A DNA stretch of 64,000 nt, from the NCBI GenBank assembly GCA_944323695.1, contig CALUTI010000001.1, positions 124,001 to 188,000 of the forward strand, in the 5' to 3' direction. The notes beneath the pieces are model-generated. The model had not been told where the DNA came from. It saw only the letters and a list, made by a program, of their open reading frames with translations, and did no database searches. Source of the stretch: Candidatus Gastranaerophilales bacterium. GTDB taxonomy: Bacteria > Cyanobacteriota > Vampirovibrionia > Gastranaerophilales > Gastranaerophilaceae. Shown piece after piece: positions 30,090 to 34,270 of the stretch. The position numbers and the translations under genes were made by a program. Every line of letters starts with the position of its first letter. Position 1 is the first letter of the stretch.

Positions 30090-30678
30090 AGAAGTCTACA
30101 AAGATTATATGGATGCTTTTTTACGTCAAAATGCAGTCGTCAATTTGATTTCTAAAAATGACGAAAAATTTTTGTGGGAAAAACATGTTGTTGACAGCCT
30201 TTCTATAGAAAAATTCTTTGAGAAATATTACCCACTATTGGAAGAGGGTATAAAGCTGCTCGATATCGGAACAGGCGGCGGATTCCCCGCTGTTCCGATT
30301 GCATTAACATACCCAGGGCTGAATGTAACTGCTCTTGACAGCATAAGAAAAAAAATTAACGCAATAGAAAATATTAAACAGGAATTAAACATCAAAAACC
30401 TCACAACAGTTTGCGACAGGGCGGAAAATATTAAAGAAAAATTTGATATCATAACCTCACGCGCAGTAGCTTCACTTGATAAAATTTGCAGCTATGCGCT
30501 GCCCTTACTTAAAAAAGACGGATACTTTGTAGCATACAAATCACGCAAAACTCCTGAAGAACTGGATTCTGCCGAAAAAGTGCTGAAAAAATATAATTCA
30601 AAGGTAATTGATATTATTGAATATCAATTACCTCTTGAAGAAAATTATACACGGAATTTAATTATTATAAAAAATTAA
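30079..30678 (+). CDS. rsmG: 16S rRNA (guanine-527-N7)-methyltransferase
   Basis: A 199-aa SAM-dependent methyltransferase of the RsmG (GidB) family. It shows the N-terminal NAVVNLIS segment, motif I LLDIGTGGGFPAVPIAL near 60, the Asp after beta-2 (TALDS) and SRAVASLDKI near 130. I place the start at TTG 30079, preceded by agaaagg; a longer form from TTG 30055 is also open but has no SD. It overlaps the 3' end of the P-loop/TPR gene and, by 4 bp, the convergent prepilin gene. Confidence 0.93.
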   Translation: MKNKEVYKDYMDAFLRQNAVVNLISKNDEKFLWEKHVVDSLSIEKFFEKYYPLLEEGIKLLDIGTGGGFPAVPIALTYPGLNVTALDSIRKKINAIENIKQELNIKNLTTVCDRAENIKEKFDIITSRAVASLDKICSYALPLLKKDGYFVAYKSRKTPEELDSAEKVLKKYNSKVIDIIEYQLPLEENYTRNLIIIKN

Positions 30679-31655
30679 TTGCCTGCTTCTTTACAGCTAT
30701 GAGGTCCATCCCAGGCAAGATCTTCACGGCAGTGGAGATAATCCATATTTTTGTTATATATTACCCAGGCTGCACATCCCATACCGGCAGTTCTTTCTGT
30801 CGCTGCCGGATCACAACCGTAACCTTCAAAGGTATAAGAAGTAGCACCTTTCATCCCTGCAGGGAAAAGACCTTTGTCATTAAACACGAAATAAAATCTG
30901 TTTTTGCCTAATACTGCATCTTTTCCAAAAGGCAATATCACAAAAATTGATCCGCTCTTGCTATATGCATCATAATTTCCCATATGAACATAGGTACCGT
31001 CACTTAGGAAAAAACGTTCTTCCGGAGATGAATCGCTTGTATTACTGCCGGTAAGTACGCCCCCAGCGTCTTCAGTTTTCAGACCGCCTATCGTATACCA
31101 TGCTCCCGGAAAACAAACTTTTCCGGTTTCGCATGTTTTCGCAACTTTTAAATACTTTTTCAAACGTGAAACAATTAAAATATTTGCTGAATGGTCATAA
31201 ATAGGCTTGTCCTCGTCATTTACTTCGCCGGTGACAGTATTTTTTAATCCCCATGTGCTCAATTGCCCGTATTCAGCCTGCGTCATTTGATAGGCCTGGG
31301 AAAATGTAGAATAGACCTTTGTAAGACTTGACACAATCTGCTTTTCTTGATATTTAGTAATAAGTGTCGGTATTGTCATTGCCGCTACCACACCAATTAT
31401 CCCCAAGGTTATCAATACCTCAGCTAAAGTAAAGGCCAATTTACATTTACTTAACCCCATGCCTATTTGAGAATTGTAGTTTTTCTGTTTTACACGTTTT
31501 TTTATTAAACTATAATTTGCCATAATTGTATTATAGTTTGCATTTTTAAAAATGTCAAACCCTTCAAATACGGTTACAATACCGCTAAAACCCTTGTAAA
31601 ATCTACTTAGAGGAGACGCCCCCCCCCCGTTTCCAGAACTTTCAAATCTTATCAT
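30675..31655 (-). CDS. Type IV prepilin-like protein with long leader and G10 tract
   Basis: From ATG 31653-31655 (SD aaaggagg) the ORF reads MIRFESSGNGGGASPLSRFY and continues in frame through 69 leader residues to FTLAEVLITLGIIGVVAAM, a class III signal with Glu at +5 (Ala in place of the usual Gly before Phe). The pseudopilin body ends in a Cys-containing domain. An internal in-frame ATG at 31521-31523 has a consensus promoter 6 nt upstream and would give a 282-aa form with an ordinary short leader. Both starts are plausible. Its end overlaps rsmG by 4 bp. Function: minor pilin or pseudopilin of a type II/IV system. Confidence 0.85.
   Translation of the reverse strand: MIRFESSGNGGGASPLSRFYKGFSGIVTVFEGFDIFKNANYNTIMANYSLIKKRVKQKNYNSQIGMGLSKCKLAFTLAEVLITLGIIGVVAAMTIPTLITKYQEKQIVSSLTKVYSTFSQAYQMTQAEYGQLSTWGLKNTVTGEVNDEDKPIYDHSANILIVSRLKKYLKVAKTCETGKVCFPGAWYTIGGLKTEDAGGVLTGSNTSDSSPEERFFLSDGTYVHMGNYDAYSKSGSIFVILPFGKDAVLGKNRFYFVFNDKGLFPAGMKGATSYTFEGYGCDPAATERTAGMGCAAWVIYNKNMDYLHCREDLAWDGPHSCKEAGN
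31530..31558 (-). promoter_or_regulatory. Consensus promoter inside the prepilin leader
   Basis: On the minus strand TTGACA (31553-31558), 17-bp spacer, TATAAT (31530-31535), 6 nt, then in-frame ATG at 31521-31523. Both boxes are perfect, so a leaderless mRNA for the short prepilin form is likely. Confidence 0.75.
31619..31628 (-). repeat. G10 homopolymer in the prepilin leader
   Basis: Ten consecutive G on the coding strand, codons 10-13 of the long leader ORF. Here the tract keeps the prepilin in frame, in contrast to the G9 tract at 18723. Confidence 0.75.
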
Positions 31656-31687
31656 AACAACCTCCTTTTTCGGTCTTATTATAACAT

Positions 31688-31716
31688 AAAAAAAAACCAC
31701 TCAACAAGTGAGTGGG
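31688..31716 (-). terminator. Terminator-like hairpin upstream of the prepilin gene
   Basis: On the minus strand CCACTCA / TGAGTGG with a 5-nt loop is followed by nine T. It lies 33 nt before the long prepilin start, where no minus-strand gene ends nearby. It may be a transcription attenuator in a prepilin leader RNA or a stop for antisense transcription. Confidence 0.5.
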
Positions 31717-32337: not shown

Positions 32338-32634
32338 ATGGCAAACGGTGACGATTTAAAAATAGGCGGTTTTAAAGACCTTAATATGCAAGTAATGGGT
32401 GCAGATAACGGAAGTATCGGCACAACACCTGTTACGCTGCCGAATAGTGATTACAATTCATTCAGGCCAAACAGGATCAATAATCAAACACAATTTTTAA
32501 GCCTTACCGCACAGCATACAACTACCAAATTCAATTCACAAAATTTTGATTTTCAATTTGGCACGACAACGGGATTAAATCCATATCAAAAGCTTACGCA
32601 GGATCAAGGGAAATTACTCCACACCATAGGATAA
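32338..32634 (+). CDS. Short orphan protein (98 aa)
   Basis: A 98-aa soluble protein, Asn/Thr/Gln/Phe-rich, starting MANGDDLKIGGFKDLNMQ and with NFDFQFGTTTGLNPYQKL near the end. The SD (cgaggac) is acceptable. No signal peptide, no Cys and no known domain. Composition recalls type III export substrates or surface repeats, but that is a guess. The inverted-repeat element starts 30 bp downstream. Confidence 0.58.
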   Translation: MANGDDLKIGGFKDLNMQVMGADNGSIGTTPVTLPNSDYNSFRPNRINNQTQFLSLTAQHTTTKFNSQNFDFQFGTTTGLNPYQKLTQDQGKLLHTIG

Positions 32635-32664
32635 TAAACGCGTCCGAGCCGGATATCAAATTGT

Positions 32665-33027
32665 CTTTACATAAAAACTATTATAGGAAGCTATCAGCAT
32701 TTTCTTTCTCTTTGTTGCGAAGCAAAGAGAAAGAAAACGCTGGCAAAAGAAAGAGAAACACGCGATTGAAATGACCGAGTGAGCAGGGGACACCCCTGCC
32801 ACCCCGTTAAAGCCGGCATAGCCGGCTCCGCGCCGTGATTATAGGCGCGGTAAACGATTGCAAGCGTCAGCTTGCAACGGCACGGATGTGCGCCCGTTAG
32901 GGCTTGAGCAATCCGTAGGATTGCAAGTAAACACGCGTGTTTTTCTTTTTCGGTTCACTTTTTCTTTTTGCATCGCAACAAAAAGAAAAAGTGAACAAAA
33001 GATTCCGATAATAGTTTTTATGTAAAG
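32665..33027. mobile_element. 363-bp MITE-like element with 20-bp perfect terminal inverted repeats and eight hairpins
   Basis: The ends ctttacataaaaactattat (32665-32684) and its exact reverse complement (33008-33027) bound the unit; four more bases match after one mismatch. Inside are perfect stems: 32700-32737 (15 bp, 8-nt loop), 32783-32799 (7 bp), 32811-32827 (7 bp), 32828-32850 (7 bp), 32858-32877 (8 bp), 32908-32924 (7 bp), a 14-bp palindrome at 32929-32942, and 32953-32996 (18 bp, 8-nt loop). The core is much GC-richer than its surroundings and carries no credible ORF. It fits a non-autonomous mobile element or a structured RNA gene. No transposase is nearby. Confidence 0.65.
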
Positions 33028-33105
33028 CGCCTTACCAATGTTGGCACAATATGTTGTCCTGCCTCAGGCAGATAATAGTTTTTATGTATAACACTGTTGG
33101 TACAG
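33028..33105. repeat. Partial third copy of the element end
   Basis: Positions 33072-33088 repeat 17 bases of the right terminal repeat (ataatagtttttatgta) in the same orientation. The following bases (acactgttggtacag) resemble those after the first copy (accaatgttggcaca). It looks like a tandem duplication of the end plus flank. Confidence 0.55.
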
Positions 33106-33145: not shown

Positions 33146-34270
33146 TTAAACACCAACTTTTGATTTTGATTTATTGATACAATCAATCAAAGTTTTGGCA
33201 ACTGTTTGTTGTTCTTCTTCCGTAAGTTCGGGGAACATCGGAAGTGAAATAACCATTTCTGTATTTTTTTCGGAAACAGGTAAAGAACCTTTTCCTACGC
33301 CCAAATATTCATGAACCTTTTGCAAGTGCAACGGAATAGGATAATAAAGCATAGCACCTATACCGTTTTCCTGAAGCATTTTGTGAACTTCATCTCTGTT
33401 AGGAATTTTAACAGTATATTGGTGGTAAACACAATATGTATTATCCAATTCTTTCGGAGTTTGAATATCAGCACAGTCTTTGAACAATTCATTGTAATAA
33501 TAAGCATGTTTACGTCTCATTTCATTCCACTGTTTTACATGCGGAAGTTTTACGCGCAAAATTGCTGCCTGAATTTCATCAAGACGGCTGTTTACACCGA
33601 TTTCATCATGGTGATAACGGATTGCACCGCCATGGTTACGCAATGCGATAACTCTATCTTTTAATTTTTCATCATTTGTCATGATAAGACCACCGTCGCC
33701 CATGCCGCCAAGGTTTTTAGTCGGATAGAAGCTTAAGCAGCCAAAGTCACCGAATGTGCCGACCATTTTGCCTTTATACAAAGCACCGATTGCCTGGCAG
33801 CAGTCTTCTATTACGTGTAAATTATGGCGTTTTGCAACATCCATAATAACATCCATATCACATGGCTGACCGTAAAGGTGAACCGGAATAATTGCTTTTG
33901 TTCTCGGGGTAATTGCTGCCTCTAATTTTGAAGCATCCATGTTGAATGTATCTTTATCAATATCTACAAAAACAGGTTTTGCACCAACAATTCCTATAGC
34001 CTCAGTTGTAGCAACAAATGTAAATGCAACAGTAATAACTTCATCACCCGCGCCGATATCTAATGCACGTAAAGCCAAATGCAATGCATCTGTTCCTGAG
34101 TTTAAACCGACAGTATATTTACAGCCGATAAAATCAGCCAATTCCTGCTCCAAAGCCTTTGTATTAGGTCCCAAAATATAAGAACCTGAACGTAAAACTT
34201 CGCATACTGCTTTTTCAACTTCCGCACCAATTGTTGCGTACTGACGTTTTGAATCTAAAATAGGTATCAT
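33146..34270 (-). CDS. DegT/DnrJ/EryC1/StrS family sugar aminotransferase
   Basis: A 374-aa PLP enzyme of the sugar-nucleotide aminotransferase family. Visible: GLNSGTDALHLAL near 55, VIEDCCQAIGALYKGK near 155 and the PLP Lys in SFYPTKNLGGMGDGG near 185. It aminates a UDP- or dTDP-keto sugar, probably for a surface glycan. Start ATG has ggagata upstream. A REP-like repeat (34297-34365) separates it from the O-antigen-ligase gene. Confidence 0.93.
   Translation of the reverse strand: MIPILDSKRQYATIGAEVEKAVCEVLRSGSYILGPNTKALEQELADFIGCKYTVGLNSGTDALHLALRALDIGAGDEVITVAFTFVATTEAIGIVGAKPVFVDIDKDTFNMDASKLEAAITPRTKAIIPVHLYGQPCDMDVIMDVAKRHNLHVIEDCCQAIGALYKGKMVGTFGDFGCLSFYPTKNLGGMGDGGLIMTNDEKLKDRVIALRNHGGAIRYHHDEIGVNSRLDEIQAAILRVKLPHVKQWNEMRRKHAYYYNELFKDCADIQTPKELDNTYCVYHQYTVKIPNRDEVHKMLQENGIGAMLYYPIPLHLQKVHEYLGVGKGSLPVSEKNTEMVISLPMFPELTEEEQQTVAKTLIDCINKSKSKVGV

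Follow-up and report, generated by a model that had tools for sequence, protein, structure and literature searches.

Parts of the arrangement analysed here have been described in several systems. In the C-type dif modules of Acinetobacter (PMC13141974; chromosomal examples in PMC12907356), the borders are formed by inverse dif-like sites with 6-bp spacers and with the XerC arms inside. The attP(+) hairpin of CTXphi (PMC3089051) likewise comprises two opposite dif-like sites, which, when a single strand folds, can pair to form one XerCD site. XerC-mediated inversion in Ureaplasma provides a case in which a tyrosine recombinase of the Xer type flips DNA between short inverted repeats (PMC3599477). 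A hairpin with a mirror third strand constitutes an intrastrand triplex motif; such motifs are repeated within bacterial genomes and have been linked to genome instability and rearrangement (Holder et al. 2015, PMC4666352). Finally, MITEs and REP-type palindromic repeats are short, non-coding, palindromic, multi-copy and intergenic.

The window (the whole stretch of 64,000 nucleotides that was analysed) carries a 363-bp element at 32665–33027, which we consider is probably a non-coding, non-autonomous chromosomal element that exploits the XerC/XerD system of its host, normally used for dimer resolution, for inversion. The features of the locus, with the strand where one is assigned, are as follows.

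32338–32634, plus strand: small ORF of 98 aa from the ORF list, directed towards the element from its left side
32664–32691, plus strand: left dif-like site, with XerD-like outer arm TCTTTACATAA (32664–32674), spacer AAACTA (32675–32680) and XerC-like inner arm TTATAGGAAGC (32681–32691), from comparison with the host dif and the B. subtilis dif (PMC3025954)
32695–32742: terminal hairpin T1, with stem CAGCATTTTCTTTCTCTTTG and loop TTGCGAAG, from the folds
32743–32759: mirror-repeat third strand of T1 (GCAAAAGAAAGAGAAAC), a potential triplex partner, from the mirror test and co-variation
32760–32938: branched interior, richer in GC and with short palindromes, replaced by other hairpins in other copies, from folds and copy comparison
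32939–32952: mirror-repeat third strand of T2 (GTTTTTCTTTTTCG), from the mirror test
32953–32996: terminal hairpin T2, with stem GTTCACTTTTTCTTTTTGC; relatives of T2 or T1 occur in 23 of the 41 sampled genera of the family
33001–33028, minus strand: right dif-like site, inverted, with XerC-like inner arm (33001–33011), spacer (33012–33017, AAACTA on the minus strand) and XerD-like outer arm (33018–33028)
33029–33070: 'alpha' unit in shortened form (about 110 bp when complete; ...CTGCCTCAGGCAG), flanked by two directly oriented dif-like sites
33071–33092, minus strand: outer dif-like site, the third of the locus, with AAACTA as spacer (33076–33081) and XerD-like arm (33082–33092)
33146–34270, minus strand: DegT/PseC-like aminotransferase gene (ORF and homologues), converging on the element and used as anchor for the orthologous locus in relatives

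The termini are exact inverted repeats of 20 bp (32665–32684 and 33008–33027), as described in the initial annotation, and the element as a whole is a single large imperfect palindrome. It folds far better than shuffled sequences both as DNA (z −18.3) and as RNA (z −18.0). At least eight stems are seen in the two folds, in agreement with the eight reported earlier, and both long perfect stems, of 15 and 18 bp, are present with their loops ttgcgaag and ttgcgatg. The G+C content, which had been called much higher than that outside, is indeed raised (44.6%, versus 35.2% in the window and 34–38% in the 1-kb flanks), but the rise is only moderate. The sole ORF within the element is a TTG-start frame of 55 codons, in keeping with the earlier remark that none is evident. 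Beyond that description, we observe that the end sequence recurs once more at 33071–33092, making three copies, that the ends resemble dif, and that mirror-repeat third strands lie beside the long hairpins. A run of about 10 C residues near 31619–31628 of the window, in AT-rich surroundings, lies within an ORF at 30675–31700.

The sequence TTACATAATATATATTATAGG is taken here as a candidate for the chromosomal dif of the genus, with the form TTACATAA-TATATA-TTATAGG. In a pattern search, 12 of the 16 genus genomes, element-free ones included, each gave a single exact copy (for example at G000:C2:75872-75892; L146, L223). A conserved continuation, TTATAGGTATCTATC, adjoins the pattern, so that the full form reads CTTCTTACATAA-TATATA-TTATAGGTATCTATC. 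The pattern has one mismatch in G002 and G013, the sole match in G003 (L221) resembles an element end, and no match within two mismatches is found in G001. The weak GC skew near the candidate gives no confirmation of its position. The dif of B. subtilis is similar to that of the genus as its reverse complement (AGTTTACATAA-TATATA-TTCTAGGAAGT; PMC3025954), and in the same survey dif prediction had failed in Cyanobacteria. The element ends and the host dif have both arms in common and differ in the 6-bp spacer, which is AAACTA in the element instead of TATATA; in the best copies, about 15 bp match on the inner side.

Two inverse dif-like sites, with the XerC arms internal, therefore border the element in the manner of a C-type dif module. 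Its copies are isolated, chromosomal and gene-free, not the dif modules of D-alternating arrays with genes, and only the alpha unit adjoins. This unit (CTGCCTGAGGCAG...TTGGTAAAGGCGCTTTA...TTACCG) is seen between direct dif-like sites in the window (33029–33092), at L005 (1395–1520) and at L341 (518–645), where it is apparently tandem; Xer would be expected to excise it.

The 6-bp spacers at the two ends were compared, both in the inward direction, in 47 loci with good arms. They are identical in inverted orientation in 39 loci, one base off in seven and two bases off in one. Most are AAACTA, and matched pairs are also seen at loci with ACAATA, TAAATA, AATATG, TGTATA, TATTTA and TATATT. Agreement is seen at 63 of 66 positions in the 11 loci whose spacers are not AAACTA, and none of 50,000 permutations of the partners reached this value; as some of these loci are orthologous, the number of independent cases is below 11. 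With a looser, blind selection of sites, none of 20,000 permutations reached the observed agreement. Visual inspection showed matched pairs in other genera as well, with CCCATG in L364 and TATATG in L366 and L367. In loci with an additional alpha unit beyond the hairpin module (L005, L305, L356), the matching pair is formed by the outermost sites. The spacers match even though the outer arms within one locus diverge beyond about 9 bp.

At three orthologous loci of two close relatives, recognised by their flanks, the same module is inverted between conserved flanking sequences. For two of these, base-by-base comparison of G010 and G014 (about 97% identity there) reveals modules in opposite orientation (L330/L358 and L325/L344), with the outer arms collinear with the flanks and the inner arms reversed along with the module. 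Both crossovers fall inside the dif-like sites, which points to site-specific recombination there and corresponds to the inversion at same-spacer sites of C-type dif modules. The third pair (L341/L357, 88% identity) is inverted as well, with an alpha unit in one of the two.

We infer that XerC/XerD would catalyse this inversion at the dif-like ends. The element's own genome encodes two full-length tyrosine recombinases of the XerC/XerD type (304 and 285 aa), and such a pair is present in nearly all genus genomes. The two proteins score as XerC/XerD and far below integron cut-offs, and the element is not assigned to the integron attC cassettes. Three small tyrosine recombinases of 176–179 aa, comprising the catalytic domain only, are also encoded in the own genome (L217, L218, L219; two at contig starts); such small enzymes occur in many of the genomes and could serve as catalyst instead. 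As partner genes they were rejected, the stretches fetched around the own-genome examples containing neither element sequence nor a dif-like site. Recombinases beyond the XerC/XerD pair are found in element-free and element-bearing genomes alike.

In the mechanism that we propose, a multi-hairpin module enclosed by two inverse dif-like sites, in the C-type layout, would be inverted through recombination of both ends by XerC/XerD, for which matching 6-bp spacers would be required. Repeated strand exchange, together with mismatch repair, may prevent the two spacers of a locus from diverging even as spacers drift between loci, and modules may spread between loci via Xer exchange or gene conversion. 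Empty sites in relatives, including those at the window locus in several of them, contain no dif-like site, and ordinary recombination between two dif sites therefore does not account for the first insertion. Since a folded strand unites both ends into one double-stranded site of the dif type, in the manner of the CTXphi attP hairpin, whose two inverted sites can anneal on one strand, the leading guess for new loci is a single-strand route, in which a folded single strand would be captured with its two ends annealed to one double-stranded dif-like site. The element does not itself resemble a phage that integrates at dif, as phage records gave no match and the loci are dispersed. Xer recombination at dif is normally FtsK-dependent and occurs near the terminus, whereas the sites described here are scattered, which speaks against our favoured explanation.

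A BLAST search for further copies, as had been suggested earlier, was positive in the own genome and in relatives. In the own genome (19 contigs, 1.73 Mb) there are 74 matches, including about 10 near-complete copies at 91–100% identity, mosaic copies and several matches at contig ends; copies so placed probably fragment the assemblies of these uncultured gut bacteria. Fifteen own loci could be read through. Copies are present in 11 of the 16 genus genomes, and a sample of the family gave a match in 50 of 117 genomes and 23 of 41 genera, beyond the genus mostly to one terminal hairpin unit. Orthologues of the neighbouring gene are mostly from gut Candidatus Gastranaerophilales MAGs. Plasmid collections and phage records contained no similar DNA, and in IMG/VR an 18-mer was found in 16 contigs, with one match apiece.

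Most loci are old and shared, and their contents change. At least 11 of the 15 own loci share one flank or more, most of them both, with an occupied locus of another species, and loci are mostly common to several species with differing hairpin contents. The window locus carries differing modules in G008, G010 (L065) and G014 (L067). Relatives have either no element or decayed traces of one at the L004 and L013 loci, and a solo dif-like relic (L279) is retained at the L021 locus of G015, a genome that gave no match to the element. Among the loci read (e.g. L009, L001), copies from one genome resemble each other in content more than they resemble their orthologues, implying that modules have been exchanged by gene conversion or Xer; gene conversion without Xer could be the cause.

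Two variants are noted in passing. The locus of a 391-bp element in G009 (L313) holds a 73-bp version in G010 and G014 (L326:521-593, L351:535-607), composed of two dif-like sites round one small hairpin, with the right spacer TACATA instead of TGTATA. In some copies (L007, L009, L010, L014, L017, L021), an insert of about 75 bp (GCTTGTTTGCTCGC...GCAATCCGC, with variants) resides in the loop of either terminal hairpin, so that hairpins are nested in hairpins.

On the inner side of each long hairpin there is a mirror copy of one arm (CAAAGAGAAAGAAAACG-CTG-GCAAAAGAAAGAGAAAC for T1 and GTTTTTCTTTTTCG-GTTC-ACTTTTTCTTTTTG for T2). Among the 15 distinct long-stem sequences with a pyrimidine arm that the search recovered, the third strand agrees at 10 of 10 positions in 13; the two stems that lack a matching third strand are in L089 and L096, outside the studied elements. 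The third strand changes together with the arm (CTCTTTC in L313, TTTCTTTTCTTTT in L177, and likewise in L364, L367, L370 and L371). Non-cognate pairs gave a mean of 7.9 of 10, a weak control because all arms are pyrimidine-rich, and the evidence resides in the exactness found in each variant. The combination of stem and adjacent mirror third strand in 13 stem sequences marks the terminal hairpins as potential intrastrand triplexes. Covariance modelling had been proposed as a check on the stems. RNAalifold on 12 copies identified 13 pairs changed on both sides, but its total covariation term was unfavourable (+2.67), an outcome probably due to the mixture of exchanged modules in the alignment. 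We regard the per-unit mirror test as more telling than this total. The initial annotation held that a single copy, with no empty sites and no covariation, would speak against it; the element is multi-copy, has empty orthologous sites and bears terminal hairpins that co-vary. An interior hairpin of some copies (CCCTCTCC...GGAGAGGG...GGGAGAGGG in L021; also L331 and L359) resembles the G/C-rich triplex motif TMECO (PMC4666352).

A broader scenario is conceivable, although we hold it only tentatively. Here, the elements would form a family-wide group in Gastranaerophilales that spreads through a folded single strand by hijacking the host XerCD; the ends would anneal to a double-stranded dif-like site, the triplex-capped hairpins would stabilise the fold, and hairpin cassettes would be swapped between fixed dif-like docking sites, much as in an integron but with no integrase of its own.

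Mobilisation as a classical MITE, the 20-bp ends being the TIRs bound by a transposase and their likeness to dif being accidental or a target preference, seems unlikely to us. The element shares with MITEs its TIRs, its lack of coding capacity and its multiple copies, and this part of the initial annotation stands, together with the copies in relatives and the orthologous sites that lack the element. Its proposal of a mobilising transposase is not supported, as both arms of the ends match the host dif, and the spacer varies between loci while being matched within each. No transposase or carrier was found, including among the end-sequence matches in the own genome; the genomic matches listed for the end sequence are at element copies or isolated single sites, and these ends were not encountered on any other element. 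Empty sites of relatives show no clear target duplication, the nearest empty site compared being only 84% identical. The age and sharing of most loci, and the inversion at the ends, are also at odds with this explanation.

We also judge it improbable that template switching during replication, or the annealing of single strands, within a long palindrome gave rise to the inversions and spacer matching in place of a recombinase, with the ends as dif relics. The strongly foldable, imperfectly palindromic element would lend itself to such events, and triplex and hairpin motifs have been linked with instability (PMC4666352). This would, however, leave unexplained why spacers match where the outer arms of the same locus differ beyond about 9 bp, why the breakpoints are within dif-like sites in both examined pairs, and why the arms are near the dif consensus throughout the loci read (128 sites). 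A primary role as a structured RNA or terminator module at 3' ends, with triple-helix hairpins and DNA mobility secondary, is very improbable: stop codons are often found within a few bases of copies (that of the window being between convergent genes), the hairpins co-vary, and the element has the order U-rich, U-rich, A-rich of known RNA triple helices, but no Rfam family matches it at gathering score, which indicates that it is not a known structured RNA family, and nothing at the RNA level accounts for the dif arms or for spacers specific to each locus, the 6-bp spacer constraint and the inversions being DNA-level signals.

Should inversion by the host XerC/XerD be correct, the element would represent a gene-free repeat family living off the chromosome dimer resolution system, and its matched spacers and inversions would serve as a natural archive of Xer acting at dispersed sites. 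A candidate dif is also offered for a cyanobacterial relative, and intrastrand triplex motifs are tied to a defined recombining element. Precedents exist for the parts, while the gene-free, multi-copy chromosomal combination is absent from the open-licence literature searched. In comparison to the dif modules of Acinetobacter, the element belongs to another phylum, has no plasmid match, and is isolated in chromosomes, gene-free and multi-copy, with nested hairpins and with spacers matched at nearly every locus. It differs from CTXphi in having no phage genes, in being at many loci and not at dif, and in a nearly perfect pairing that includes the spacer. In Ureaplasma, phase-variable genes are affected, whereas the element is gene-free and its ends copy dif. 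From MITEs and REP-type repeats it is distinguished by the dif-like ends, with neither transposase nor target duplication found. The motif examined in detail by Holder et al. (PMC4666352) is G/C-rich, whereas the A/T-rich T1 and T2, with 13 co-varying stems, are positioned at both ends of a dif-bounded element.
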